Assembly: GCF_000447795.1 (NCBI RefSeq)
Contig: NZ_AUNI01000015.1
Location: 186,001-250,000, forward strand
DNA: 64,000 nt
Source of the DNA: Bacteriovorax sp. Seq25_V
GTDB taxonomy: Bacteria > Bdellovibrionota > Bacteriovoracia > Bacteriovoracales > Bacteriovoracaceae
Direction of reading: 5' to 3'
The position numbers were made by a program, and so were the translations under genes. Shown here piece after piece: positions 31,971-46,508 of the stretch; position 1 is the stretch's first letter; each line of letters starts with the position of its first letter. The notes beneath the pieces are model-generated. The model saw nothing but the letters and a program-made list of their open reading frames with translations. It made no database searches and had not been told where the DNA came from.

Positions 31971-32770
31971 TGCTTACAAAAATCAATAATCGACTATCTT
32001 CATTTTATCCATTATTTGGCTTCTACTTTCTAGCCTGGGTGGTACATCTTATCATTATTTCGATAATATCGTTCTTCCATTTCAGATTAGACCATCGTTT
32101 GATAGTTATTGAGAATTGGATATTTGATTATGCTTGGACTCTAAGCTTAATGTCGAAGGTTATCGCATTTATTCTCTATTGGAGATATTTCTATGAGGAT
32201 AGAATTAAGAACTTTACGGAGGCCTTTGAGTCATCAGCAAAGAAAAGTATCAATCCAGAAGTTTTAATCTTTACGATTATGAATTTCGCCTTATTGTCAT
32301 TCTTTGTAAAACCTATCGTTCAAGAGAATGTCTTATTTTCTGCTGGCCCTTCGATTACGCATTACTTATCTGTATTCTTTGTGTTCTTTATTGATCTGAT
32401 GGTGCTAAAGATATTTAGAAGAAATAAAGGTGAGTTGAATATTAAGGAAGTCGTTATCTGTAGTTCTTTCTTATACCTTTACAATATTGCTGTTTTTCCA
32501 TTTGGCGAAAATCTAGGGATTTCATTTTATTCATTGATAGTACTGTTTTTTATTTATTATTTTGAATTTGGAAAATCCTATGTCAACTCCTCAATTTATG
32601 TCCTCCTTGTACTTTGCCCTCTGTTTGTTATTCTAGGAATAGATCCAGTATGGGGAAGTAAGTTTGCTTATTTTGAGCCGGCAACATCAATAAGAAGAGA
32701 TGTTGTATTTGCTGTGTTACCAATTGTTACTTATGTATATTTTTCTTTTATAAGAAGGAGAACCTTGTGA
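31970..32770 (+). CDS. Polytopic membrane protein, unknown
   Basis: A 266-residue integral membrane protein with about six to seven hydrophobic segments (roughly 15-40, 55-70, 98-113, 121-145, 160-175, 185-200 and 205-225) and a basic C-terminus (SFIRRRTL). No family is recognised. ATG overlaps the TAA of the M48-like gene; its TGA overlaps the GTG of tolQ. The coupling suggests it works with Tol or the SH3/pseudo-peptidase pair. Confidence 0.75.
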   Translation: MLTKINNRLSSFYPLFGFYFLAWVVHLIIISIISFFHFRLDHRLIVIENWIFDYAWTLSLMSKVIAFILYWRYFYEDRIKNFTEAFESSAKKSINPEVLIFTIMNFALLSFFVKPIVQENVLFSAGPSITHYLSVFFVFFIDLMVLKIFRRNKGELNIKEVVICSSFLYLYNIAVFPFGENLGISFYSLIVLFFIYYFEFGKSYVNSSIYVLLVLCPLFVILGIDPVWGSKFAYFEPATSIRRDVVFAVLPIVTYVYFSFIRRRTL

Positions 32771-33474
32771 ATGAACATCAAACTTTAGATATTCTACAAA
32801 TTATGCTTAATGCAAGTATTGTGGTGAAGGGCGACCTTTTACTACTTGTAATGGCTTCAATTGCATCGTGGGGAATCATTCTTAGAAAATCACTTCTATT
32901 TAAAAAAGTATTTGCTAATAATGAGGAATTTTACGATTCATTTCAAAAAGCAAGTTCAATGACAGAACTTTACGATCGTTGTGATAATTATGACGATTCA
33001 CCTTACAAGAGATTATTCTGCGCTGGCTTCAAAGAGTTTAATAGACTTAGAGAAGCTAATGATGGAGATCTGATGAAGCTTAGAGCTCACTTTGTTGACT
33101 TTGGAATGCAGGGGATTGAAAGATCTTTGAATGCAACAAAAATCAAAGTTGAAGAAGAGCTAGGGGATTCTCTAACGACATTAGCTAGTATTGGTTCAAT
33201 TACACCATTCGTGGGTCTTTTTGGGACGGTTTGGGGAATTATTGATTCATTTGCAAGTTTATCTATGGGAGGAGCAACTCTTGAGACGGTAGCTCCTGGT
33301 ATTGCAGAAGCTCTTGTTGCAACGGCGATTGGTCTTGTTGCCGCAATCCCTGCGGTATGGTTCTACAATAAGTTTGGAAGTAGAAAAGCTAAAACGTCAG
33401 AATCAATGATTTATTTTGGCGAGGAATTTATAAACGAGTTAGAAAGAATAATTGCAAAGAAAACTCACGGGTAA
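32767..33474 (+). CDS. tolQ: TolQ proton channel subunit
   Basis: A 235-residue MotA/TolQ/ExbB protein with three membrane helices. SIGSITPFVGLFGTVWGII and PGIAEALVATAIGLVAAIPAV are the two conserved pore-lining segments. It uses the proton gradient to drive TolA and keep the outer membrane pulled in during division. GTG start overlapping the previous stop. Identified as TolQ rather than ExbB because tolR, a TonB-domain gene and tolB follow. Confidence 0.92.
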   Translation: MNEHQTLDILQIMLNASIVVKGDLLLLVMASIASWGIILRKSLLFKKVFANNEEFYDSFQKASSMTELYDRCDNYDDSPYKRLFCAGFKEFNRLREANDGDLMKLRAHFVDFGMQGIERSLNATKIKVEEELGDSLTTLASIGSITPFVGLFGTVWGIIDSFASLSMGGATLETVAPGIAEALVATAIGLVAAIPAVWFYNKFGSRKAKTSESMIYFGEEFINELERIIAKKTHG

Positions 33475-33477
33475 TTT

Positions 33478-33894
33478 ATGGCATTTGGAAGCGGTGGAAA
33501 TGGAAATGGTCCGGTCTCTGATATTAACGTAACCCCGTTAGTTGACGTAATGTTAGTATTGCTTGTTATCTTTATGATAACGGCACCACTTATGTTCAAC
33601 GGGATTGAGCTTGTATTACCAAAGACTCAAGAATCAAATATCGTCAGTATAAATTCAAGTCAGGTAATTTTGAGTTATACAACTTCAGAGGAGTATTACT
33701 TAGGAAAAGAGAAGGTACTTCAATCTGAGATCATTTCTTTTATAAAGAGAGAATTACAAGAGACGAAATCTCAGACTCTTTTTTTAAGAGCTGACTACAA
33801 GCTTGATTATGGAAAAGTTGCAAAATTGATGTCTTATTTAAAAGCAAATGGGATTAATCAAATTGCATTAGTAACAGAGGTAGAGAAAGAGTAG
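33478..33894 (+). CDS. tolR: TolR/ExbD proton channel subunit
   Basis: A 138-residue single-pass protein. The N-terminal helix [19 protein letters not shown] has the conserved Asp that carries protons. The periplasmic part has the ExbD/TolR fold. It works with TolQ to energise the partner encoded next. Three bases after tolQ; its stop overlaps the next start. Confidence 0.93.
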
Positions 33895-34682
33895 TGGTTT
33901 ATTATCGCAAAATTCCTTATCATCTAGTTTCTTTTGGAGTGCATGCGCTACTTTTCGCACTCTTTTTCTTATTTTCTAAGAACTCATTTTTTTCTAGTAG
34001 TCATGACGTTGATAAGTCAAAGATTCGAGTTGTCGGGAAGGCTATTCGAGTTGATGTGGTTGCAATGCCTAAAATGACGATTCAAGAACTGAAGAAGTAT
34101 GACGAGGCCCCAGGGGATATTAATATTAAGCCACCAGAGCCGAAAAAAGTAGAGAATACAGGTGGTGATGAAAATACTGTTTTTAAAAAAGAAGTAAAAA
34201 AAGCTTCTTTTGCAGATATGTTAAAAGATTTAAGTAGTCGTGAGACAACAAAATCAAAAGCGAAGCCTGTCGCAAGAAAAAATGAAGAGCAGGCCGGAGC
34301 GGGTGGAATAAGTGGGGACAAGCTTAAAAAGATTATGTCTCTTGGAAATAGAATCAGTGAAGGCTCGGCCTTATATGGGAACGGAGGCGAAAACTCTGGC
34401 GATGAGCTTGATAAGTATGCTCTTTCAATAACTGATTTAGTTCGAAGAAATTGGTCACTGCCTGGATTTTTATCAAATAAAGATTTGAGTTGTCAGATTC
34501 AAGTCTTTATTTCAAAAACAGGAAAATTAATAAAAACAAATATCATCAAATCAAGCGGCAATACTGATTATGATCAACGAGCGCTAAACGCAATTTTAAA
34601 AGTAGGAAACTTTCCTGCTCCAAGTGAAGTCATTGCCAATCAAATATCAACAGGACAAATTGCGCTCGGATTCCCTCTATAA
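33894..34682 (+). CDS. tolA: TolA-like energy transducer with TonB C-terminal domain
   Basis: A 262-residue protein in the tolA position. One N-terminal membrane helix (about 12-26), a Lys/Pro-rich periplasmic stretch and a C-terminal TonB-type domain at about 180-262 (QVFISKTGKLIKTNIIKSSG). It links TolQR in the inner membrane to TolB and the outer membrane. It is shorter than enterobacterial TolA (about 420). GTG start overlapping the tolR stop by one base. Confidence 0.85.
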   Translation: MVYYRKIPYHLVSFGVHALLFALFFLFSKNSFFSSSHDVDKSKIRVVGKAIRVDVVAMPKMTIQELKKYDEAPGDINIKPPEPKKVENTGGDENTVFKKEVKKASFADMLKDLSSRETTKSKAKPVARKNEEQAGAGGISGDKLKKIMSLGNRISEGSALYGNGGENSGDELDKYALSITDLVRRNWSLPGFLSNKDLSCQIQVFISKTGKLIKTNIIKSSGNTDYDQRALNAILKVGNFPAPSEVIANQISTGQIALGFPL

Positions 34683-34688
34683 GGAGTA

Positions 34689-36008
34689 ATGATGAAATTA
34701 CTGATACTTTTAGCTTTATGCTTTAATTTTAATTCTTTTGCACAGAATTCACTAACTATTGTTTCTGTTGGGGATGCTCAAGTTGTTAAAGAAAAAGTTT
34801 TCGTAGAAGAACCTTATTTAAATGATGCGAGCTTGTCGTCATTAACGACTACGGGACAGAAGATTGCGGAAATTATTAGAAATGATTTTCGATTCTATCA
34901 AAACTATTTTGAAGTAGTGAAGGGGAGCTTCTCTAGGCAAGCATTTGGAACGGTTTCATATAGTGATAGAAAGGAGAAGGTGAATTACTCAATCCAACTT
35001 GGAATTTCTAAACTTGAAAATCCTGTTTTATCTGTAAAAGTTTTTAATATTGATAAAGAGTCAGAGATTGCGTCTTCTAATATTGATTTGAGACTAGATC
35101 AGAGACGAGTTGCTCACGAAGCAGCAAAGATTGCTTATAAAGCAATCGTTGGAAAAGACCCTATTTTTACAGATCGAATCTTCTTTGTATCTGACTATAG
35201 AATGCCAAATGGAATTAAAGAACTATTTGTGATGGACTTTGATGGGGCCAATATCAAACAACTTACTTTTCATAAAGGACTTGTTATATCGCCTGCAGTT
35301 TCTCCTGACGGAACAAAAGTACTTTATAGTTTGATTGATGAAAAGAATAAGGGGAGAGCAAAAAATAATAATCTCATGATGCTTGACCTAACAACAGGCA
35401 AGAGTGAAATCATTTCAAAAAAAGCAGGGATAAATTCGGGCGCTGTTTTCGCAGAGGATGGGCTGTCTATTTATGTGACTTTATCCATTCATGGAAATGC
35501 TGAAATATATCAAATGGAACTTGCTACAAAATCATTAAAAAGACTAACAAGAAACTTCGCTCCTGACGTTGACCCGTCAATTAATGCAAGTGGATCGCTA
35601 ATGACGTTTCTTTCTGGTCGTCCAGGAAACCCTATGATTTATACGATGATCCCTACAAGCGAAGAAAATAGCGTAAAAAGAATCTCCTATGTTGGAAAAT
35701 ACAATGCTACCCCAAGATTCTCACCTGATGGGAAGGAGATTGTTTTTGCTTCATGGATGGATGAAAGATTCGATCTTTACAAGGTAAACAGTGACGGAAG
35801 CGCTCTGGGACGACTTACCAAAGATTTTGGGTCAAATGAAGACCCAGACTATTCAAAAGATGGACAGTTCATTATTTTTACAAATCAAAGGGTTATCTCT
35901 CGCTCTGAGGCCGTCCAAAATTTATACATTATGGACATCGAAGGTAAAATTCTAGGTGCTTTAACGCAAAATTTTGGAAAGTGTATAAGTCCTAGATGGT
36001 CTAAGTGA
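34689..36008 (+). CDS. tolB: TolB beta-propeller periplasmic protein
   Basis: A 439-residue secreted protein: signal peptide to about residue 18, then the TolB N-terminal domain, then repeated propeller units such as SPAVSPDGTKVLYS, PRFSPDGKEIVFAS and DPDYSKDGQFIIFT. In other bacteria TolB binds Pal and colicins; Pal is not in the window. Six bases after the tolA-like stop. A terminator follows directly. Confidence 0.93.
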   Translation: MMKLLILLALCFNFNSFAQNSLTIVSVGDAQVVKEKVFVEEPYLNDASLSSLTTTGQKIAEIIRNDFRFYQNYFEVVKGSFSRQAFGTVSYSDRKEKVNYSIQLGISKLENPVLSVKVFNIDKESEIASSNIDLRLDQRRVAHEAAKIAYKAIVGKDPIFTDRIFFVSDYRMPNGIKELFVMDFDGANIKQLTFHKGLVISPAVSPDGTKVLYSLIDEKNKGRAKNNNLMMLDLTTGKSEIISKKAGINSGAVFAEDGLSIYVTLSIHGNAEIYQMELATKSLKRLTRNFAPDVDPSINASGSLMTFLSGRPGNPMIYTMIPTSEENSVKRISYVGKYNATPRFSPDGKEIVFASWMDERFDLYKVNSDGSALGRLTKDFGSNEDPDYSKDGQFIIFTNQRVISRSEAVQNLYIMDIEGKILGALTQNFGKCISPRWSK

Positions 36009-36011
36009 TCG

Positions 36012-36038
36012 AAAATACGCAAAATGGTGTATTTTTTT
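36012..36038 (+). terminator. Terminator of the sppA-tolB operon
   Basis: AAAATACGC and GTGTATTTT pair over nine positions (one G-U) with a six-base loop and a T tail. It ends the nine-gene transcript four bases after tolB. Confidence 0.7.
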
Positions 36039-36060
36039 CAAACACCCGAGTATTTTAGTC

Positions 36061-36089
36061 TTGTAAAAAATACAGACGCAGTGTATTAT
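36061..36089 (+). promoter_or_regulatory. Sigma-70-type promoter of the AAA+ regulator gene
   Basis: TTGTAA (36061-36066), 17-bp spacer, TATTAT (36084-36089). The predicted RNA start near 36096 lies downstream of the far-upstream in-frame ATG, which supports the start at 36144. Confidence 0.65.
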
Positions 36090-36143
36090 GAATTTAGATT
36101 AACGCACAGCGAAACAAGATTAAAATTAACGGGAGATATGACA

Positions 36144-37691
36144 ATGACTAACTCACTGACTACAAAATCAACAAGAATTGAAGAATTATCGTCTAAACTT
36201 CTTTCAACTTTAAATGAGTCTGTTTTCTTTGGTGAGTTAACAAATTATGTTTCTGAGATCATTAAATCAGACGATATTCTTATCAATCTTATTCACGAAG
36301 ATAATAGCTCAAGACTAGTAGCACATAACGGTAAAGCGATTGAGGATTCTGAAAGAATTGAAAAAGCAACTGGTGCATGTGGACATGTAGTAAAGTCTAG
36401 AAGAGCATACTTTTCAAATAACGTTAGTAGAGATCCAATCTTTGCGAACTCTTGTTCAAATGCTGTTGCTGAACTTTGTGTACCAGTATCAGTTGATGGT
36501 GTAATCATTGGAACAATCCACTTAAGAAGAAATTCTGAAGAAGTAAAATTTGAAAGAGAAGATATCAATACAGTACTAGAAATTTTAAGTGAAATTAAAG
36601 CACCACTTCTTAATATGAAGATGTTCCTTTCGGCTAAGTATTTAAATGAATCATTGGCAAGAAAGATTAAAGAAAAAGAAATGGAACTTCTAAAATCAAG
36701 AAATGGAATCCAAATTGCTGATACATACAAAATCTCTGAAAGAGAAATTATTGGTAAGTCAGCTATTATGAAAGAACTTATCTCAAGAGTTGATAGAGTT
36801 GCTGTAACTAACGCAAACGTACTAGTTAACGGTGAATCAGGTGTTGGTAAAGAAATGATCGCAAGAAGAATTCACTGTAGAAGTGAAAGAAGAGATCACG
36901 CATTTATCTCTGTTGATTGTTCAATGGGAACTGAAGAGCAACTAGAAGCAGAAATTTTTGGAAAAGAAGAACTAGACCTTGCAAGAGGATCAAGAACAAT
37001 TAAAGGAATGGTAGAAGCTTGTGATGGTGGAACACTATTCGTAAATAATATCCATAGATTACCAGTAAGACTACAAGCTAAACTTGTAAGCTTTATGAGA
37101 GATGGAATCTTCTTTAGAGTTGGTTCTCAATCTCCACTTAAGTCTGATGTTAGAGTTATTGCAGCTTCTAACAAAGACCTTAAAGATATGGTTTCTGAAG
37201 GAACATTTAGAGAAGACCTATACTTTGTAATCGCAACTGTTGGTCTAAGAGTACCTTCTTTAAAAGAGAGAAGAGAAGATATTGAAGTACTTGCTAACTT
37301 CTTCTTAAATAAAGATAAGAATGTAGAAAATCAAAAATCAATGTCTCCTGGTGTTGTTAAACAACTTTTAGACTATAACTGGCCTGGAAACGTAAGAGAG
37401 CTTCAATCAATTATGGAAAGAGCATATATTCTTTCTCCAAGTTCAATCATCGAAAGAGATCACTTGGCAGATTGCGTAAAAGCTGAAGTAGTTGAAGTTG
37501 TTGAAACTGAGAAAGTAGAAATGAACTTTAGAGAGATGACTCTTAATGATCTTGAAAAGCACCACATTTGCCAAACTTTAGAGCATTTAAGTGGTAACAA
37601 GACAAAAACAGCTAAAGTTTTAGGAATTACAGTAAAAACTTTATATAATAAGCTTCACAGCTACGGTATGATTGACGCAAAAGAGGCGTAA
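36144..37691 (+). CDS. GAF/AAA+/Fis regulator lacking GAFTGA and Walker B acids
   Basis: A 515-residue relative of sigma-54 activators (bacterial enhancer-binding proteins). A GAF domain (about 15-155) comes first, then an AAA+ domain with Walker A GESGVGKE (230-237), FREDLY with R356 and PGNVREL; a Fis-type helix-turn-helix fills about 484-508. Two hallmarks are gone. The Walker B site, normally LFLDEI, reads LFVNNI (N301, N302). The GAFTGA loop that contacts sigma-54 is missing; after IFGKEE comes LDLARGS. It should neither hydrolyse ATP well nor open a sigma-54 promoter, so it may act as a repressor or at sigma-70 promoters, perhaps using the GAF domain for a ligand. I start at 36144 (GGGAG eight bases upstream). 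Confidence 0.85.
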   Translation: MTNSLTTKSTRIEELSSKLLSTLNESVFFGELTNYVSEIIKSDDILINLIHEDNSSRLVAHNGKAIEDSERIEKATGACGHVVKSRRAYFSNNVSRDPIFANSCSNAVAELCVPVSVDGVIIGTIHLRRNSEEVKFEREDINTVLEILSEIKAPLLNMKMFLSAKYLNESLARKIKEKEMELLKSRNGIQIADTYKISEREIIGKSAIMKELISRVDRVAVTNANVLVNGESGVGKEMIARRIHCRSERRDHAFISVDCSMGTEEQLEAEIFGKEELDLARGSRTIKGMVEACDGGTLFVNNIHRLPVRLQAKLVSFMRDGIFFRVGSQSPLKSDVRVIAASNKDLKDMVSEGTFREDLYFVIATVGLRVPSLKERREDIEVLANFFLNKDKNVENQKSMSPGVVKQLLDYNWPGNVRELQSIMERAYILSPSSIIERDHLADCVKAEVVEVVETEKVEMNFREMTLNDLEKHHICQTLEHLSGNKTKTAKVLGITVKTLYNKLHSYGMIDAKEA

Positions 37692-37704
37692 TCAAGAGAA
37701 TTAA

Positions 37705-37733
37705 TTGTAATATTGTTTTTAAAAAAGTAAAAT
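37705..37733 (+). promoter_or_regulatory. Promoter of the 65-residue protein gene
   Basis: TTGTAA (37705-37710), 17-bp spacer, TAAAAT (37728-37733). The RNA would start at about 37740, just before the GGAGG site, giving a very short leader. Confidence 0.6.
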
Positions 37734-37752
37734 ATTCCGTGGAGGAAATTAT

Positions 37753-37950
37753 ATGACAACTGAATTAATCCAAGCTGAAGCAATTAAGAATACGAAGAAT
37801 TTTAGAAATTCTGCAGATATTGAAAACTTCTACCGCTTTGTTCATGAAAATGACCTAAGATTTGAAGCAAAGAAAGTATTCGAGTTGATTATGCAAGCAA
37901 TCAACGAAAAAACAAAAAAGAAAACTAGAAAATCTAGAAAAGTACAATAA
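37753..37950 (+). CDS. Small basic-tailed protein, unknown
   Basis: A 65-residue cytoplasmic protein with a strong GGAGG ribosome site and its own promoter. The first 50 residues look helical (ADIENFYRFVHENDLRFEAK); the tail is strongly basic (KTKKKTRKSRKVQ), which could bind nucleic acid. No family is recognised. It follows the AAA+ regulator by 61 bp and is closed by its own terminator, so it is a monocistronic unit that may be highly expressed. Confidence 0.7.
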   Translation: MTTELIQAEAIKNTKNFRNSADIENFYRFVHENDLRFEAKKVFELIMQAINEKTKKKTRKSRKVQ

Positions 37951-37961
37951 ATAAAATACAA

Positions 37962-37995
37962 AAAATCCCCTCAGCCGGAAGAGGGGATTTCTTTT
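37962..37995 (+). terminator. Terminator after the 65-residue protein gene
   Basis: AAATCCCCTC and GAGGGGATTT form a 10-bp stem with an 8-base loop, then CTTTT. It ends just before the ribosome site of the HD gene, so that gene either uses read-through or a promoter inside this stretch. Confidence 0.8.
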
Positions 37996-38004
37996 GAGGC
38001 CAAC

Positions 38005-39435
38005 ATGGATGTTGTAAAAAGTAATATCGTATTTGATCCGTTATACGGATTTATCAATCTCACCCCACTTGAAGTAGAAATCATTCATAGTCCTTTTTTT
38101 CAACGTCTCAGATGGATTAAGCAATTAGGTTTTTCTTGTTATGTATTTCATGGCGCGGAACACTCACGCTATGGACACTCTATTGGAGTAATGCATAATG
38201 CTCATCATATTTTAAAGTCTTGTGGACGTGCTGTTTCTGACGAAGAATTACATGATCCAAAGTGTCTAACCAAAGAAGCGATTTATCATAAGGCCATTAG
38301 AGTATCAGCTCTACTTCATGATATTGGAACATTCTGTTTTTCTCATACAACAGAGATGGCATATATTAGATTCGGTGAAACAACTAATAAGCGTGGTGGA
38401 AAAGGTTTAAAAGATGATCATGAAAATCTTGGATCTTTTATAATCAAAAATACAAACTATGAAGGTGGTTTAACTTATATCCTTGAAAAGTATGGTATTG
38501 ATCCACAAGAGGTTTCTGACCTAGTAAAAGGAGTGCATCCATCGGTAATGGCAAATCAAATTCTACATTCGGAAATTGATTGTGACAGAATGGACTATCT
38601 TCTAAGAGATGCTCACTATACAGGTTTAAAGTACGGAGCTTATGACCGTGATTATTTACTTCATCACTTTAAATCGATGAGAGTAGGTGATCATGATATT
38701 TTAACAATTAAGCACAACGCTCTTCACTGCGTAGAAGATTTTCTAAATGCAAGATTTGCTTGGTATTCGCAAGTAATTCGCTCTCCTCGTGGAGCACGGT
38801 ATGATGCTATCGCAGAAAGAGTATGTTTCCATTTCTTAGAAAAAGGTTATGTGTACCGTTATAGCGATCTTCTCGATATGATCTCTAAAGAGCCGATGAA
38901 GTTCTTTGGATTCAACGATAGTTACTTTATGAATACTGTTCATGCTAAGTATATCGATGGCAGTCTCGATAATGTTCCAGATATTAAAGATATGGCGAAA
39001 ACACTTCTTTTAAAAACTGGTGCGGTTTCTATTAAGGCCGATGAACTCAAGCAAGTTCTTCTCAATCAAGATGATATTAGTGGTAATGAGAAGGTTTTCA
39101 AGAAGGCCCATAATAAAGCGAAGCAAATCGAAGCTGTTATTCAGGAGAAAGGATCAAGTGCTGACTGGGTTCTTCCTGATATTCCTTCAAAGATGATTAT
39201 CTTTGTGAAGTCTCCAAAGGCCATTGCAAAAGATAATAATATGTCCAATCTTTTACTTGAGAGAGATCCTGTTAAGATCAGTTATCAAAATGGTGACGTT
39301 AAACTATTAGCAGATGTTGAAAACTCTATTATTTCTAAGCTAAGTAGAAGCATGAGCTACACACCAAATGTTTTTTGCTCAAATAGTGCATTCGAACTTC
39401 TTGTGAAAGAGGGGATTGCGACGAGGATTCCATAA
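38005..39435 (+). CDS. HD-superfamily phosphohydrolase
   Basis: A 476-residue protein of the dGTPase/SAMHD1-like HD family. The metal site is complete: H58 in YGHSIGV, H105-D106 in LLHDIGTFCFSH and an Asp in IDCDRMDYLLRDA. DPLYGFINL at the start is typical of this branch. Such proteins cleave nucleotides or related phosphate esters; substrate not known. Its ATG lies five bases after GAGG. Ends at a terminator shared with the convergent neighbour. Confidence 0.88.
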   Translation: MDVVKSNIVFDPLYGFINLTPLEVEIIHSPFFQRLRWIKQLGFSCYVFHGAEHSRYGHSIGVMHNAHHILKSCGRAVSDEELHDPKCLTKEAIYHKAIRVSALLHDIGTFCFSHTTEMAYIRFGETTNKRGGKGLKDDHENLGSFIIKNTNYEGGLTYILEKYGIDPQEVSDLVKGVHPSVMANQILHSEIDCDRMDYLLRDAHYTGLKYGAYDRDYLLHHFKSMRVGDHDILTIKHNALHCVEDFLNARFAWYSQVIRSPRGARYDAIAERVCFHFLEKGYVYRYSDLLDMISKEPMKFFGFNDSYFMNTVHAKYIDGSLDNVPDIKDMAKTLLLKTGAVSIKADELKQVLLNQDDISGNEKVFKKAHNKAKQIEAVIQEKGSSADWVLPDIPSKMIIFVKSPKAIAKDNNMSNLLLERDPVKISYQNGDVKLLADVENSIISKLSRSMSYTPNVFCSNSAFELLVKEGIATRIP

Positions 39436-39465
39436 AAAAAGGAGCCTTCGAGCTCCTTTTTATTT
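39436..39465. terminator. Bidirectional terminator
   Basis: GGAGC and GCTCC with loop CTTCGA, flanked by seven A on one side and a T run on the other, between convergent genes. Confidence 0.75.
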
Positions 39466-40239
39466 TTATTTTCTTAAATTTTTTCTTCGCTCAATAAGTG
39501 GAGTGTAAACGCCTTCAAGACTATCGCCATTATATTTAATTTCTTCAAGCTCACCAGTTAATAATTTAACATCAGAAGTAACAAATAAAACTTCAATATA
39601 ACTATCCAATGTTTGGTAGTTTCTAATGAATGCTTTCTCTTCAACTGGATTGTCTATATTGAGGAGAAGACAAATAATATTTGCGGAACCCTGTGGTTGA
39701 GTCATGCGTGGGATCATAAAACTAAGATCATCAACAAGATTACCTAAAAGCTCTTCACGCTGTTCTTGATCATCAGGAAGAAACTTATTATTTATACTAA
39801 AGAATGTTGCTTCAACACCCATATATGCATGTGTCTTCTTATCGATTGATAAGAGAGCAATACTCTCATCACTTGGAGAAATAAGGTACTGCTTAGTTAA
39901 TTCATCATAGAATGGAGTAAAAACAAAGTTATCAAAGTGGCTGCCATTATGGTTGATACCAATAACATTGATTCTCTCTGAGTTTGAAACTTCTTTAATA
40001 AATTGGCCGAGCATAATTGGATATACTGTTTGTCCATTTGATTCGGCTACAGCTTGAGCACGGTCGGTATAAGCTAGAAAAACTGAAAGACCCAGATCTT
40101 TTAGTTCAGCCCTCTTAAAACATTCTCCATCTTGAATAGAGTAGACGATATCGTAAAAAGATAGCGTAACTTCATTCTGAGTTAAAAGTGACTTGAGTAG
40201 GCTAGGTCTTTTAAAATCTGATCCAATTTTCTGTAACAT
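39466..40239 (-). CDS. Unknown cytoplasmic protein next to cheR
   Basis: A 257-residue soluble protein with no signal peptide and no membrane segment. I recognise no domain. It ends in a basic tail (ERRKNLRK). It starts eight bases after the stop of cheR, so it is probably co-transcribed and may work with the methyltransferase or receptors. Confidence 0.65.
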   Translation of the reverse strand: MLQKIGSDFKRPSLLKSLLTQNEVTLSFYDIVYSIQDGECFKRAELKDLGLSVFLAYTDRAQAVAESNGQTVYPIMLGQFIKEVSNSERINVIGINHNGSHFDNFVFTPFYDELTKQYLISPSDESIALLSIDKKTHAYMGVEATFFSINNKFLPDDQEQREELLGNLVDDLSFMIPRMTQPQGSANIICLLLNIDNPVEEKAFIRNYQTLDSYIEVLFVTSDVKLLTGELEEIKYNGDSLEGVYTPLIERRKNLRK

Positions 40240-40247
40240 TTTATCCT

Positions 40248-41069
40248 CTATTCAGCTTTCTGATATATTGTTAACCCATCGTGGGTAACTCTTTTTAAAT
40301 CAATATCAAGTCCAATTAAGCTTTCGCCGTTTCCAAGAACAAGAAATCCTCCAGGCTTTAAAGACTTCGTGATATTCTTAAGAATTGCTTCCTTATTATC
40401 CTTGTCTTGATAAATAAGAACATTACGACAAAAAATAATGTGGTAATTGTTCTCTTTGAATTTTCCTGTTAGGAGATTAAATTCAAAGAATTTTACCTTC
40501 GATCTTAATTCCTTACTGACTTCCCAGTTCTCATCAGGAAGTTGTTCAAAGTATTTCATTAGAGTCGTAATTGGTAAACCACGTTGAACGTCCAGACCGT
40601 TATATATTCCTTTTTTAGCCTTATCAAGAGCTGTTTGAGAGATGTCTGAGGCTTCAATCATGACGCGAGGAAAGAAGCTCTTGTCCTTCATATCATTAAT
40701 AGACATAAGAATTGAGTAAGACTCTTGACCAGTACTCGCTGCACAACTCCAGATATTGAAAAGTCCCATTGTATACTTTTGGGCCAATTCCGGAAGCATT
40801 AGAGTGGTTAGGGCCTTGAAAGGTTTATTGTCTCTAAAAAAATAGGTCTCGTTATTTGTAGAAAAATTAATAAGAACAGCGTGCATATCAGGAGTGATAT
40901 TTGCCTTATACATCTTATATAATTCTTCAACAGTGTTCACTTCAAAAACCTCTAAGAGATCCTTAAATCGTGAATCAAGGCGATAGTAATCCTTCTCTAA
41001 GTAGGTGATTCCAGTGTGCTGATAAATATAATCAGCAAAGAACTTGTAAATTTCATTACTTGTAGCCAT
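40248..41069 (-). CDS. cheR: CheR-type chemoreceptor glutamate methyltransferase
   Basis: A 273-residue S-adenosylmethionine methyltransferase that methylates chemoreceptor glutamates. The N-terminal helical domain is followed by NETYFFRDNKPF, FNIWSCAASTGQESYS (SAM site), EASDISQTALDKAKKG and IIFCRNVLIYQD, all CheR marks. I start at the ATG at 41069, preceded by GGAG; an in-frame upstream start at 41138 has no ribosome site. No CheB, CheA or receptor gene is in the window, so it is an orphan here. Confidence 0.9.
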   Translation of the reverse strand: MATSNEIYKFFADYIYQHTGITYLEKDYYRLDSRFKDLLEVFEVNTVEELYKMYKANITPDMHAVLINFSTNNETYFFRDNKPFKALTTLMLPELAQKYTMGLFNIWSCAASTGQESYSILMSINDMKDKSFFPRVMIEASDISQTALDKAKKGIYNGLDVQRGLPITTLMKYFEQLPDENWEVSKELRSKVKFFEFNLLTGKFKENNYHIIFCRNVLIYQDKDNKEAILKNITKSLKPGGFLVLGNGESLIGLDIDLKRVTHDGLTIYQKAE

Positions 41070-41196
41070 TTTTTCTCCAAAATTCGATACTGATATAAGT
41101 ATATGTCTATCTATCAGGATTAATATGAGGAAAATCATTTCGGGGGAGATTTATCGTGTATTATTTCCTGACTTTTTTTGTCTTTTAAACAAAGTT

Positions 41197-41225
41197 TTGA
41201 AAAAAAATCAAAAATGTACTACAAT
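41197..41225 (+). promoter_or_regulatory. Promoter of the ftsE-ftsX-envC-ctpA operon
   Basis: TTGAAA (41197-41202), a 17-bp spacer and TACAAT (41220-41225). The RNA should start near 41232, which leaves a leader of about 60 bases. Confidence 0.7.
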
Positions 41226-41232
41226 AATTAAA

Positions 41233-41244
41233 GGTCCAAGGACC
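41233..41244. repeat. Palindrome at the ftsE transcription start
   Basis: GGTCC-AA-GGACC lies right after the predicted start site. It is placed like an operator, or could form a tiny 5' hairpin. Length is short, so function is uncertain. Confidence 0.4.
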
Positions 41245-41291
41245 ATAGATTCAAGTTAGGATGATTTGAATAATTAGAAAGGATTCTGCAA

Positions 41292-41996
41292 ATGATATCA
41301 GAAGGTTACCGCCAAACTCCGGATAGTCTCTTCAGTGAGCCTCATCACCAAAGCCAGACACTTTTTAGATTAGACAACGTAAGAGTTAGTTATCGTGATT
41401 TCGATGCTCTTAGAGATGTAAATTTACAAATTCGTTCAGGCGAAATTATTTTTTTAACAGGTGCCTCTGGAGCAGGTAAGACAACATTATTAAATGTACT
41501 TGCTGGTAATATCAGACCGAGTTCTGGAAAGATTCAATCTTCTAATAATCAGTTCGTTGCCCAAGTTTTTCAGGACTTGAAATTGATTGAGCGCTTAACA
41601 TGTAGAGAGAACCTACAATTTGCATTTGATCCATCTATTTATAAAAATAAAAAAGAATTTGATTCTGATCTTGAAGAATTAGCAAAAATCATGGGTATAA
41701 GTAATCGCCTTGATTCGAAATTATCTGAAGCAAATGGCGGTTTGAAGCAGAAAATTTCGATTGTAAGAGCATTATTAACAAGACCTAGCGTGTTTCTAGC
41801 TGATGAACCAACGAGTTCTCTTGATTATGAAAATGCGAAGAGATTTTTTGACCTTCTTAATATCTATAACGTGAAAAGAAAAATGACTGTGGTATGGGCA
41901 TCTCATAATAGAGAGCTAGTTCAAAAATTTAGTGGAAGAATTATTCATTTAGATAAAGGTAGATTGATTCATTCGGGGCATGCATGTTTTATATAA
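41292..41996 (+). CDS. ftsE: FtsE-like cell-division ABC ATPase
   Basis: A 234-residue ABC ATPase. Walker A GASGAGKT at 57-64, Q-loop in AQVFQDLKLI, Walker B VFLADEPTSSLD and the switch His in WASHNREL. The signature is changed (EANGGLKQK in place of LSGGEQQR), and an N-terminal extension of about 22 residues is present. Assigned FtsE from the adjacent FtsX-like and EnvC-like genes. With FtsX it activates septal murein hydrolases through EnvC. Overlaps the next gene by 13 bases. Confidence 0.85.
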   Translation: MISEGYRQTPDSLFSEPHHQSQTLFRLDNVRVSYRDFDALRDVNLQIRSGEIIFLTGASGAGKTTLLNVLAGNIRPSSGKIQSSNNQFVAQVFQDLKLIERLTCRENLQFAFDPSIYKNKKEFDSDLEELAKIMGISNRLDSKLSEANGGLKQKISIVRALLTRPSVFLADEPTSSLDYENAKRFFDLLNIYNVKRKMTVVWASHNRELVQKFSGRIIHLDKGRLIHSGHACFI

Positions 41997-42778
41997 GCGA
42001 AACGTATAATTTTATAAGAAAGAATATTGCTAAAACTTTAGTTCTAAGTTTTTTCTCAATAGTTTTATTATTCGGCTTTTGTAACTTTACTTATTTTCAA
42101 GGTGAAATTTCTAAAAGACTACCAAGTGTCGAAAATCAGCACTACTTTAATGCTCTTGTTGATCACAAGATCAATGTCTTCTCAATCAAAAGAAAAATTG
42201 AAGAACTTCCAGGTGTGACAAAGTTTGAAGTCCTAGGAGATGAGGTAACCAAATCGTACCTTGAAGATCTAAATACAACTTTAAACCTTTCAGAAGAAGA
42301 ACTAGTTGAGCTTAGTAATATGATTACTATTAAGGTTTCAATGACTCCTGAGTTAAACGAGTCATCAATTAGTTTGATTAGAGAGTATATGAACCGCTTA
42401 GCTGGTTCCCAGAACATCATGCTTGGAGGAGTTAAAAAGAAAATCAATAATGAGGTAGTTTTTAAAAATCTCATCAGTATTATAAAAAAATGGCCACTTC
42501 AAATAGCTCTTAGTGTTCTCTTAGCTTTTTGGATGGTGAGTTTCCTAAGTATTAGAAATGAAATAAAGAAAGTTTCTTTTATTATTGAAAATTTTCAACG
42601 TAAAACAAATGTCGCGATGAAAATGACTCTCTCTCTTACTGTTGTAAATTTGATTCTTGGATTAGTTTTGTCTTACTTAATGTTTGAACCAAATCTATAC
42701 TCAGTATTATTATTTTGTTCAATTTCAATGTTTGTTCCTTTTGCGTTTGGAAAGAAAGCGCAGTGGGTAAAGGCTTAA
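41984..42778 (+). CDS. ftsX: FtsX-like membrane protein
   Basis: A 264-residue membrane protein with the FtsX layout: one N-terminal helix (about 17-35), a periplasmic domain of about 125 residues, then three helices (168-188, 208-230, 235-252). The sequence itself is weakly conserved; the call rests on topology and on its place between ftsE and envC. It should transmit ATPase strokes to the EnvC-like protein. Overlaps the ftsE end by 13 bases and the envC start by one base. Confidence 0.8.
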   Translation: MFYISETYNFIRKNIAKTLVLSFFSIVLLFGFCNFTYFQGEISKRLPSVENQHYFNALVDHKINVFSIKRKIEELPGVTKFEVLGDEVTKSYLEDLNTTLNLSEEELVELSNMITIKVSMTPELNESSISLIREYMNRLAGSQNIMLGGVKKKINNEVVFKNLISIIKKWPLQIALSVLLAFWMVSFLSIRNEIKKVSFIIENFQRKTNVAMKMTLSLTVVNLILGLVLSYLMFEPNLYSVLLFCSISMFVPFAFGKKAQWVKA

Positions 42779-43776
42779 TGAAAAGTAAATTATTACTAAC
42801 ATCAATTCTCTTCTGTTCAGCTTTTGCTGCAACAAGAACGGATTATCAAAATGTCATTAAAGAAGTTAATGGCCTTAAAACAAATATCCAAAAAATCGAA
42901 ACATCTTTGACGACTAAGAATGCTGAATATTTGAAGGTTGTTTCTCAAAGACAGAAAATTGATATTGAAATCTATGAATTAGAAAAAATTATTAGGAATA
43001 ATATACTTGTTCTAGAAGCAAAGAGAAATGAACTCTCTCTTAAGATGAGAAGCCTTCTTTTAAATTCAATCGAAAAAGGTGATGGGTCATCTCTCCTCGA
43101 AAAAAAGATTCTTCTCGCACGAGTAAGAAAAGATAAGAAAGAAATTGAGTTACAGTTAAAAGTTGAAAGAGAAACACAAAAGAAACTTACTGAACAGAAA
43201 GTTAAATATACTGAGAAAGTAAATCTTGAAAGAGAGCTGTATACACTAGTTAGTGAACTTGAAAGAAAGAAAAGTGACTATGTTCAAAAGTATATGGCCA
43301 GTAAAGAAAATGCTGAGAAGTTGAAAGAAGAAATTCACGAGATTCAACAGAGTGTGGCGAAGGCAAAAGTAAAGAAATCTACGCCAACAACTGTTGCTGA
43401 ACTCAATGCTGATTTTTTAATGCCAATCGAAGAATTTATTTCTAAGGATTACGATAAAAAAGGAATAACATTCGCTGTTAAGACAGTGAGTGATATTAAG
43501 GCTTCAAAAGCTGGACAAATTGTTTATACAGGAGCTCTTGCAAACTATGGAAACGTAGTTATGATTGATCATGGAAATGATGTAAGAAGTATTTATCTCG
43601 GGGATTTGTCTCCACAGGTAAAGAAGGGTGACAAGGTGTCATCTGCACAAGTGATTGCTAAAACAAGACGTTCAATACGTAAGGAAGCAATCGGAAAAGT
43701 TTATTTTGAAATAAGAAACAAAAACAAAGTACAAAATACAATTAAACTTGTGATGAACGAGAAGACACAAGTTTAA
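42778..43776 (+). CDS. envC: EnvC-like murein hydrolase activator
   Basis: A 332-residue secreted protein with a signal peptide (cut near AFAA). Residues 25-210 form long coiled coils; the C-terminal 110 residues are a LytM (M23-like) domain with GALANYGNVVMIDHGN and a closing VYFEIRNKN. The zinc ligands of active M23 enzymes are absent, as in EnvC, which does not cut peptidoglycan but activates amidases. I start at the ATG at 42778 that overlaps the ftsX stop, with AAAGG upstream; a longer frame from 42715 would hide the signal peptide. Confidence 0.85.
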   Translation: MKSKLLLTSILFCSAFAATRTDYQNVIKEVNGLKTNIQKIETSLTTKNAEYLKVVSQRQKIDIEIYELEKIIRNNILVLEAKRNELSLKMRSLLLNSIEKGDGSSLLEKKILLARVRKDKKEIELQLKVERETQKKLTEQKVKYTEKVNLERELYTLVSELERKKSDYVQKYMASKENAEKLKEEIHEIQQSVAKAKVKKSTPTTVAELNADFLMPIEEFISKDYDKKGITFAVKTVSDIKASKAGQIVYTGALANYGNVVMIDHGNDVRSIYLGDLSPQVKKGDKVSSAQVIAKTRRSIRKEAIGKVYFEIRNKNKVQNTIKLVMNEKTQV

Positions 43777-43789
43777 AATCGGAGTAATA

Positions 43790-45136
43790 ATGAATTTCTG
43801 TCGAAATCTACTTGTTGGAACAGTGATCACTGTTTCTGCTCTTTCGCACGCAAGTAGTGAAAAATCTCGCTTTGAAAAACTAGAACTATTCAATAAGGTT
43901 CTTCACCTAATTGAGACTCAATACTATCGTGATGTTGATACCGAAAAGCTTGTTGATGGAGCTTTGAAAGGGATGCTGAACACTCTAGATCCACACTCGA
44001 CTTTCTTAGATAAAACTGTTTTTGAAAAAATGCAGGAAGATACTAAGGGAGAGTACGGCGGACTTGGAATCGAAGTAACTCAAAAAGATGGTGTTCTGAT
44101 CGTTGTTACTCCTATTGAAGATACTCCAGCATACAAAGCAGGGATTAAGGCGGGAGACAAGATTGTAGAAATCAATCATGAGTCTACTCTTGGGATTACT
44201 TTAGAAGAATCTGTTGATAAAATGAAAGGTGAGCTTGGACAGAAAATTAGCTTAGGAATTCTTAGAAATGGAGAAAAAGAAATTCGCTATTTTGATGTAA
44301 AGAGAGAGATTATTAAAACTCGCCCAGTAAAGTCCTTTAATAAAGATGGATTTGTAATTATTCGTTTAAATCAATTTCAGAAAGATTCTGGGAAATACAT
44401 CGAAGAAGCAATTATCTCACAGAGAAAGAAACTTGATAATAAAGTAAAGGGATTCATTCTTGATCTTAGATCAAATCCAGGTGGGCTTCTCGATGAAGCA
44501 GTAAACGTGGCATCAATCTTTTTAAAAGATGGTGTTGTTGTTTCAACTGAAGGTAGAGATCCAAAAAATAAAGAAATTAGGTATGTAAAAAAATCTGGTC
44601 ATAAAGAACTGGAATTACCAATAGCTGTTTTAATCAATGGCTCATCAGCTTCTGCTTCTGAGATCGTTGCTGGTGCACTTCAAGATCAAAAGCGAGCACT
44701 AATTATTGGGACTCAGTCTTTTGGAAAGGGTTCAGTTCAAACAATTTCTCAATTAACTGAAGATCAAGGATTAAAGCTTACAATTGCTCAGTATATGACT
44801 CCAAAAGGAAGAAAAATTCAGGCCATCGGTATTAAGCCAGATGTTGAAGTTCTTCCAGCTGAGGGAGAGTGGTTAAGAGAGAACTTATCAGATGACGGAT
44901 ATATTAGGGAAGCTGACCTGAGAAACCACTTAACGGCAACAATAGAAACTCCTGCAGAAAAAGAAGAACGTATTAAAAGAGAAAAGTCCCAAAGGTTAAA
45001 AAGAATCGAGAGGGCGAAGAAAAATAAAGAGATTACGGCATCTGTTGCGGATGCTGAAATTAGAAAGTATGACCCTGAGAATGACTATCAAATTATACAG
45101 GGAATTCGTTTACTCCAAGCAGTATCAAAATATTAG
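43790..45136 (+). CDS. ctpA: C-terminal processing peptidase CtpA (S41)
   Basis: A 448-residue secreted serine peptidase. After the signal peptide and a helical region (YYRDVDTEKLVDGAL), a PDZ domain sits at about 92-160 (YGGLGIEV and KAGIKAGDKI). The catalytic S288 is in NGSSASASEI and K313 in FGKGSVQT, 25 residues apart as in the family. It trims or degrades periplasmic proteins, including murein hydrolases in several bacteria. Fourteen bases after envC and closed by a terminator. Confidence 0.93.
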   Translation: MNFCRNLLVGTVITVSALSHASSEKSRFEKLELFNKVLHLIETQYYRDVDTEKLVDGALKGMLNTLDPHSTFLDKTVFEKMQEDTKGEYGGLGIEVTQKDGVLIVVTPIEDTPAYKAGIKAGDKIVEINHESTLGITLEESVDKMKGELGQKISLGILRNGEKEIRYFDVKREIIKTRPVKSFNKDGFVIIRLNQFQKDSGKYIEEAIISQRKKLDNKVKGFILDLRSNPGGLLDEAVNVASIFLKDGVVVSTEGRDPKNKEIRYVKKSGHKELELPIAVLINGSSASASEIVAGALQDQKRALIIGTQSFGKGSVQTISQLTEDQGLKLTIAQYMTPKGRKIQAIGIKPDVEVLPAEGEWLRENLSDDGYIREADLRNHLTATIETPAEKEERIKREKSQRLKRIERAKKNKEITASVADAEIRKYDPENDYQIIQGIRLLQAVSKY

Positions 45137-45140
45137 AAAA

Positions 45141-45165
45141 AGGCCACCTTCGGGTGGCTTTTTTG
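45141..45165 (+). terminator. Terminator of the ftsEX-envC-ctpA operon
   Basis: GCCACC and GGTGGC around a TTCG tetraloop, then six T. A textbook rho-independent terminator. Confidence 0.9.
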
Positions 45166-45212
45166 TTGCACTCCGTCTACTCACTTCATCTCAAAAATAA
45201 GACAATGCTTAA

Positions 45213-46508
45213 ATGAATTTAAATGTCCCAAGTGTTTCGGTACTTGTTAACCAAATTAAGCGTAATCTCGAGGCCTCTTTTAGAAATGTCACTGTAGTTG
45301 GTGAAATTACTAATTTAAGTTACTCTTCTTCTGGTCACTGGTATCTCTCTCTTAGTGATCCTGAGTCACTAATTTCTGCTGCTGTCTTTAAGATGGATGC
45401 AATGAGAAATCCTGTGCTCAAAAACCTAAAAGATGGGGATAAAGTTATTTGTGCAGGCGCCATTTCTGTTTATGCTAAACGCGGAACATTTCAACTGATA
45501 ATTAAAAGAATTACTCCAGTGGGGAAAGGTGATCTTAAGGAGCAGTTTGAACTTCTAAAAAAGAAGCTAGCCGCTGAAGGTCTTTTTGATCTTGAAAGTA
45601 AAATGCCAATCCCTGAAATGCCAAAACGTATTGCTGTTATTACAGCAAAGGGAGCAGCTGCACTTCAGGACTTTTTAAATATTGTTGATCGTCGATCTTT
45701 ATTTTGTGATGTTCTGATTTCACCTGCATTGGTACAAGGTGATGCCGCTCCTGTCTCAATTCGTAAAGCGCTTGAAAAAGTTATTCGCTACGATATGAAA
45801 CACAGAGAGGCAGGAAACCTTGATAAGTGCATTGACGTTATCGTTCTTACGCGCGGTGGAGGAAGTCTTGAGGATCTATGGGCCTTCAATGATGAAGCTC
45901 TGGCATGGGATATTTACAATTGTCCAATCCCTACGATCTCAGCGGTTGGACACCAAGTAGACTTTTCAATATCTGATTTTGTTGCCGATTTAAGAGCAGA
46001 GACTCCATCTGCGGCGGCAGAAATTCTAACTAATAAACAAAAAGAAATAGTAGAGAGACTTGAAAATAATAAGCGACATCTAAAATCTGCAATTCAATCA
46101 AAAGTACAGAAGCATCGCTACGAACTATCAAGTGCAACACCGGCTAAGATTCTTGAGAAACTATGGAAGAGAATTTCATTATTCAAGTCAAGACTTGAAA
46201 ATTGTAATGTGTTAAAACGCAAAGTGGAGCTCTTATCTCTTTCTGAGTCTCAATACGAACTCGATATTCTAATAAATTCGATGATGACAAATATAAAGAA
46301 ACTAATTGAAAAGAAGAGCCGTGACCTACAACTACAAAACGAGTTACTGACGGCCCTTAATCCAAAAAGCATCCTATCTCGAGGATATGCGTATACAGAG
46401 ATTGATGGAAAAGTTTTAACAAGCTTTAAGGATTTTACGAAAGTAGAAAAAGATAAAGTACTGAAACTTCACTTTAATGATGGTTGTGGTGAAGTTAAGA
46501 AAATATAG
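45213..46508 (+). CDS. xseA: Exodeoxyribonuclease VII large subunit
   Basis: A 431-residue XseA. The OB-fold at the N-terminus (VVGEITNLSYSSSGHWYLSL), a central catalytic region (AVITAKGAAALQDF, LTRGGGSLEDLWAFNDE and SAVGHQVDFSISDFVADL) and a long C-terminal coiled coil agree with the family. It degrades single-stranded DNA with the small subunit XseB; no xseB gene is in this window. The next gene starts six bases later. Confidence 0.94.
   Translation: MNLNVPSVSVLVNQIKRNLEASFRNVTVVGEITNLSYSSSGHWYLSLSDPESLISAAVFKMDAMRNPVLKNLKDGDKVICAGAISVYAKRGTFQLIIKRITPVGKGDLKEQFELLKKKLAAEGLFDLESKMPIPEMPKRIAVITAKGAAALQDFLNIVDRRSLFCDVLISPALVQGDAAPVSIRKALEKVIRYDMKHREAGNLDKCIDVIVLTRGGGSLEDLWAFNDEALAWDIYNCPIPTISAVGHQVDFSISDFVADLRAETPSAAAEILTNKQKEIVERLENNKRHLKSAIQSKVQKHRYELSSATPAKILEKLWKRISLFKSRLENCNVLKRKVELLSLSESQYELDILINSMMTNIKKLIEKKSRDLQLQNELLTALNPKSILSRGYAYTEIDGKVLTSFKDFTKVEKDKVLKLHFNDGCGEVKKI

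Follow-up and report, generated by a model that had tools for sequence, protein, structure and literature searches.

A bEBP derivative apparently without its sigma-54 motor at the tol-ftsEX locus of the Halobacteriovorax family

Introduction

What becomes of a sigma-54-type activator (bEBP) when both the loop that contacts sigma-54 and the residues that hydrolyse ATP are gone, while the rest of the protein is kept? This question is raised by a gene of Bacteriovorax sp. Seq25_V, located in a stretch of 64,000 nucleotides that we refer to as the window. An earlier, sequence-only reading of the gene had described a protein with intact Walker A, arginine finger and Fis helix-turn-helix, in which the Walker B Asp-Glu had become N301-N302 and the sigma-54 contact loop had disappeared. 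We compared the gene, its product and its surroundings with those of relatives of the host, and propose how such a regulator might work. The coordinates of the features discussed are collected in Table 1.

Table 1. Features of the regulator locus (positions in the window) and of related proteins encoded elsewhere in the same genome
Feature	Position	Strand	Remarks
Conserved block	36040..36059	+	AAACACCCGAGTATTTTAGT (also given as AACACCCGAGCATTTTAG); just upstream of the -35 box of the regulator promoter
Regulator promoter, sigma-70-like	36061..36089	+	TTGTAA-17-TATTAT
Candidate operator	36100..36114	+	TAACGCACAGCGAAA; family consensus TWAYGC-N3-GCRTWA; putative function
Degenerate bEBP gene (regulator)	36144..37691	+	515 aa; GAF (residues ~30-150), AAA+ (~202-445), Fis HTH (~465-510)
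Walker A, intact	36831..36854	+	GESGVGKE, residues 230-237; K236 retained in 32/33 orthologues
L1 region, GAFTGA replaced	36954..37010	+	EIFGKEELDLARGSRTIKG; residues ~271-289
Walker B, Asp-Glu replaced	37044..37049	+	N301-N302
Arginine-finger segment	37209..37229	+	FREDLYF-V; R356 retained, second Arg = V362
Fis-type helix-turn-helix	37593..37667	+	GNKTKTAKVLGITVKTLYNKLHSYG; almost invariant across the family
Promoter of the 65-aa gene, sigma-70-like	37705..37733	+	TTGTAA-17-TAAAAT
65-aa basic small-protein gene	37753..37950	+	core NFRxSxDIENFYRFVxENxLRREA, basic tail; adjoins the regulator throughout the family
bEBP-like protein L209	G000:C17:10189-10647	-
bEBP-like protein L210	G000:C14:14777-15229	-
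bEBP-like protein L211	G000:C16:4781-5110	-

Results and discussion

Domains and motifs of the regulator

The start of the gene is supported by the alignment of its Met with that of most orthologues, and its product matched the Pfam profiles GAF, Sigma54_activat, AAA_lid_14 and HTH_8. By descent the AAA+ domain is of the bEBP type (PF00158, E 9.5e-49, 165.8 bits against a cut-off of 20.2). The single-sequence structure model of the regulator had a pLDDT of 37.

Most of the earlier description was borne out: Walker A is present from G230, K236 included, the same two asparagines are read at Walker B, the GAFTGA loop position reads EELDLARGS, so that the sigma-54 contact loop is missing, and the Fis helix-turn-helix hardly varies in the family. 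The arginine finger, in turn, is intact by half. Its first Arg, R356, the equivalent of PspF R162, is present, but V362 stands at the position equivalent to PspF R168, and there is thus no paired finger.

Loss of the motor within one family

Orthologues were sought in 58 whole genomes of relatives, and 33 family sequences were compared closely; a broad-pattern scan of other bacteria, whose hits were mostly unrelated bEBPs, supplied a set of the 80 best matches that served solely as background. Almost every genome of the GTDB family of the window, which is that of Halobacteriovorax (including Halobacteriovorax marinus SJ), yielded the regulator gene. In the background set Walker B reads DE in 79 proteins and DD in one, and a GAFTGA-like pattern was matched by 71 of the 80. 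An alignment of orthologues, which had been proposed as a check on the degenerate motifs, came out mostly in favour of the earlier reading: 32 of the 33 family members lack the canonical combination of GAFTGA and Asp-Glu, and a single one (L064) has it. Outside the family, the closest homologues from the phylum are canonical, with GSFTGA and DE. The Walker B Asp is found in 7/33 family orthologues, the Walker B Glu in 2/33 and the second Arg of the finger in 9/33. Every catalytic position is missing in at least some members, and many motif positions differ between them.

The family regulators form one clade (support 100/99). Given these canonical outgroups, the loss of the motor falls inside the Halobacteriovorax family. 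A weakly supported branch (79/48) sets the degenerate members apart; the motor may have been lost once or several times. They are not degenerate in the same way. In a clade of eight, at least nine residues of L1 are deleted, while the second Arg of the finger is present and the Walker B Asp often so; in the clade of the window the L1 loop is substituted (shortened in some members), both Walker B acids are absent in most, and Walker A, R356, D358 and the sensor II residue R418 are retained. The residues of the ATP pocket are D258/N302/R356/R418 in the window clade and mostly H258/K343/R362/Q418 in the other clade, and two clades with different fixed pockets are unlike the outcome of free decay.

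The change of N64/E108 to D258/N302 is shared by 18 of the 33 family members. The idea of an inverted glutamate switch built on this pair was dropped: Asp occupies the same position in 11 of the 80 bEBPs of the wider scan, so that D258 by itself is no sign of a rewired pocket.

At the same locus, three family members carry a far more diverged regulator (G006:C98, L081; G029:C11, L080; G023:C81, L207). The longest branches of the tree are those of L081 and L080, both of which are also devoid of the palindrome described below.

The gene for sigma-54 is present in the genome of the window and in 55 of the 58 genomes overall, therefore the loss of the motor does not follow a loss of sigma-54. Three further bEBP-like proteins of the same genome (L209, L210 and L211), one of them with the GAF, AAA+ and Fis arrangement, are likewise without GAFTGA and the Walker B Asp-Glu, so that bEBPs of this lineage may have lost their motor more than once.

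The promoter of the regulator and a candidate operator

Few non-coding stretches of the locus are as well conserved as the promoter of the regulator, and in most family loci a palindrome begins 8-10 bases past its -10 box. The mean consensus score of the palindrome was 10.1 versus 7.57 +/- 0.14 in shuffles, with a consensus derived from the very sequences that were scored; the fixed offset, which alone is independent of this, is therefore the stronger argument. A search around the regulator and the next gene gave no -24/-12 element with a score of 8 of 11. Action on sigma-70 promoters, as suggested by the sequence-only reading, thus appears most likely, given a conserved sigma-70-like promoter of its own and the missing -24/-12 element, but the 65-aa gene is not supported as the target that it had considered possible (see below).

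In the genome as a whole the palindrome showed no enrichment (3 versus 5 control places at 2 mismatches; 2 versus 1 for a degenerate form), and a regulon defined by it was rejected. That the palindrome acts as a hairpin in the RNA and not as an operator in the DNA is not favoured either, as C/A combinations in several members would not pair. One good copy of the palindrome, TAACGCTTTGCATTA at G000:C11:143979-143993 (L212), stands between two divergently oriented genes. It is a possible second target, though it could be there by chance, and such a site in a divergent intergenic region elsewhere makes other targets conceivable.

A proposed nucleotide switch without turnover

Based on these comparisons, we suggest, with a probability of roughly 0.6, that the regulator is a motorless, sigma-54-independent DNA-binding derivative of the bEBPs throughout the Halobacteriovorax family, which binds nucleotide without hydrolysing it and probably regulates its own gene. 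Its AAA+ domain would still bind nucleotide and hardly hydrolyse it, and would hold an oligomer together without turnover, oligomerisation being a switch that the GAF domain may set. Without L1, sigma-54 presumably could not be engaged in the known way. The Fis helix-turn-helix would bind the TWAYGC-N3-GCRTWA palindrome, at about +4 to +18. The position of the palindrome, shortly after the -10 box, is one expected of a repressor site, and the regulator may therefore repress its own sigma-70 promoter; it would control few genes besides.

A laboratory mutant of PspF, E108Q, provides the closest parallel for the ATP site. With an amide at the Walker B Glu it has less than 1% of the ATPase activity, binds ATP 30-fold more tightly and forms constitutive hexamers (PMC4132715). 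N302, an amide at the same catalytic position, can be regarded as its natural analogue. In PspF E108Q, on the other hand, the Walker B Asp, the GAFTGA loop and the two arginine fingers are in place, and the mutant remains active with sigma-54. Because of this analogy, and because Walker A, R356, D358 and R418 are kept, nucleotide binding without turnover is the most likely state of the domain.

It is rather doubtful that the AAA+ domain has only a scaffolding role and that DNA is bound in a nucleotide-independent way, in the manner of VpsR or of a nucleoid protein. VpsR does not require ATP, as reported (PMC10274813), and the loss of each catalytic position in at least some members would suit such a role. 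However, G230, G235 (33/33) and K236 have remained invariant or nearly so among the 33 sequences, while other residues of the pocket drifted.

The adjacent 65-aa gene

In agreement with the sequence-only reading, the 65-aa gene has a promoter of its own, and a TTG-17-TA...T promoter is found at the same place in most relatives. As hairpins also occur in the gap in some of them, the gene is probably transcribed separately from the regulator. In L064 and f12, which have the intact motor, the two genes are separated by 22, -4 and 31 bases, too short for such a promoter; the coincidence of a short gap with an intact motor is suggestive, but the sample is small.

That the regulator chiefly activates or represses this neighbour, as had been proposed earlier, we consider unlikely. 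The two genes adjoin in the family and in f12, and the small gene has a conserved promoter of its own. Nevertheless, the palindrome found at the promoter of the regulator is at shuffle level upstream of the small gene (8.33 versus 8.24 +/- 0.12, not above the shuffles), the candidate operator being located at the promoter of the regulator itself, and in other families the small gene occurs without the regulator as a neighbour.

No match for the 65-aa protein was found in Pfam, NCBIfam or PHROGs. Its model is weak and helical (pLDDT 68) and gave no significant fold match. In some other families the small protein bears long Ala/Lys-rich, histone-H1-like stretches (L201:6949-7428(-); L079:7470-7988(-)), which hint that it possibly binds nucleic acid. 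In two other families the small gene lies near folD. Among 26 promoters of the 65-aa gene (window and relatives), 12 have AAG immediately in front of the -10 box, possibly a family-specific extended -10 element.

Is the regulator still an activator of sigma-54, or a decaying gene?

The regulator might also remain in the service of sigma-54 by joining an intact paralogue in mixed hexamers, to which it would contribute subunits that do not hydrolyse ATP. Intact bEBPs are encoded in the genome of the window, sigma-54 is present there and in nearly all relatives, and PspF chains mixing E108Q subunits have been constructed and assayed (PMC4132715). Nonetheless, it is the L1 loop touching sigma-54 that has been lost, through different changes in each clade, no -24/-12 element reaching the above score accompanies the gene or its neighbour, and none of the intact paralogues is a close relative, which makes such a role very improbable.

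Selection on the gene was assessed with the Nei-Gojobori method. In four pairs pN was 0.12-0.26 versus a pS of 0.55-0.68, with the lowest values in the helix-turn-helix in three of them; ties of pS aside, this domain is under the strongest constraint. Invariant columns gather in this domain, and the recognition helix is almost identical in the canonical outgroups. The sequences thus show purifying selection to maintain the regulator, including Walker A, the clade-specific residues of the nucleotide pocket and the recognition helix. Decay into a pseudogene, to which the free variation of many motif positions between members and the long branches of L080 and L081 might point, was therefore ruled out for practical purposes by an open reading frame, preserved synteny, dN far under dS across the family and an almost invariant helix-turn-helix.

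Since the parts of the motor were lost while the gene stayed under selection and its DNA-binding end is almost unchanged, a fuel-free switch acting on ordinary promoters, and in the first place on that of its own gene, is probable. We tentatively extend this to a broader proposal, which is less secure than the preferred reading: that family-wide an AAA+ motor has been turned into a switch of sigma-70 promoters that responds to nucleotide but is dead for hydrolysis, which retained its DNA-reading part and stayed between tol and ftsEX, diverged into at least two clades with different sets of ATP-pocket residues, and left L064 as the intact member.

Comparison with known GAFTGA-less regulators

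TyrR is a Fis-HTH homologue of the bEBPs that both represses and activates sigma-70 promoters, and in E. coli it is without the GAFTGA segment. It differs from the regulator described here in possessing ACT/PAS domains and no GAF. Its Walker B is reported as TVFLDE in the A. brasilense paper.

A bEBP without GAFTGA is a kind already known, as exemplified by VpsR and by NtrC of Rhodobacter and Caulobacter, and its hallmark, the bEBP fold with a Fis helix-turn-helix in the absence of GAFTGA, is present here. Such proteins serve sigma-70 promoters, and they differ in their need for ATP: R. capsulatus NtrC requires binding only, VpsR none, and Caulobacter NtrC its Walker motifs (PMC10274813). VpsR of Vibrio cholerae resembles our regulator as a GAFTGA-less bEBP of sigma-70 promoters that is reportedly independent of ATP (PMC10274813), and a solved structure (7v2b) matches the AAA+ profile. 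However, VpsR has a receiver domain (PMC11416940) in place of GAF, and the context of small gene, tol and ftsEX is particular to the Halobacteriovorax family. The title of a work cited by PMC11416940 names an ATPase activity of VpsR. With the NtrC proteins of Rhodobacter capsulatus and Caulobacter the regulator shares a lineage-specific loss of L1/GAFTGA and sigma-70 promoters (PMC10274813), but these proteins have a receiver domain where ours has GAF, and Caulobacter NtrC needs the Walker A and Walker B residues (PMC10274813), the latter of which are lost here.

The known GAFTGA-less bEBPs are single cases set against distant relatives. Among the open-licence papers searched we found no whole family in which Walker B has been lost as well and which can be compared, at similar loci, with canonical outgroups and a single intact sister. 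The present case constitutes one orthologous locus in a conserved neighbourhood, where over 30 members have lost the motor in various ways, one is intact and the outgroups are canonical. The coexistence of intact and motorless members at one locus makes it possible to test step by step in which order sigma-54 contact and ATP hydrolysis were lost, and with what consequences. The regulator is also a first candidate for control of the tol / ftsEX neighbourhood of predatory bacteria.

Gene neighbourhood

The gene order is tolQ-tolR-tonB-tolB, regulator, small gene, HD-domain gene, ftsE-ftsX, M23 (EnvC-like) gene, S41 protease gene and xseA, and it is kept family-wide as far as the contigs extend, with the HD gene absent in a few members and FtsX named from its position. 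The regulator is thus placed after tolB and before the conserved 65-aa gene, usually followed by ftsEX; f12 has the regulator, the small gene and ftsE in succession. The conserved cluster from tol through ftsEX to xseA (window 32767-46508 and loci L043-L071) brings together two envelope-constriction systems. In the window, a gene without a Pfam match and a CheR-type methyltransferase gene (39466-41138, minus strand) stand between the HD gene and ftsE, an insertion into the conserved cluster that is confined to the genus of the window and a few relatives.
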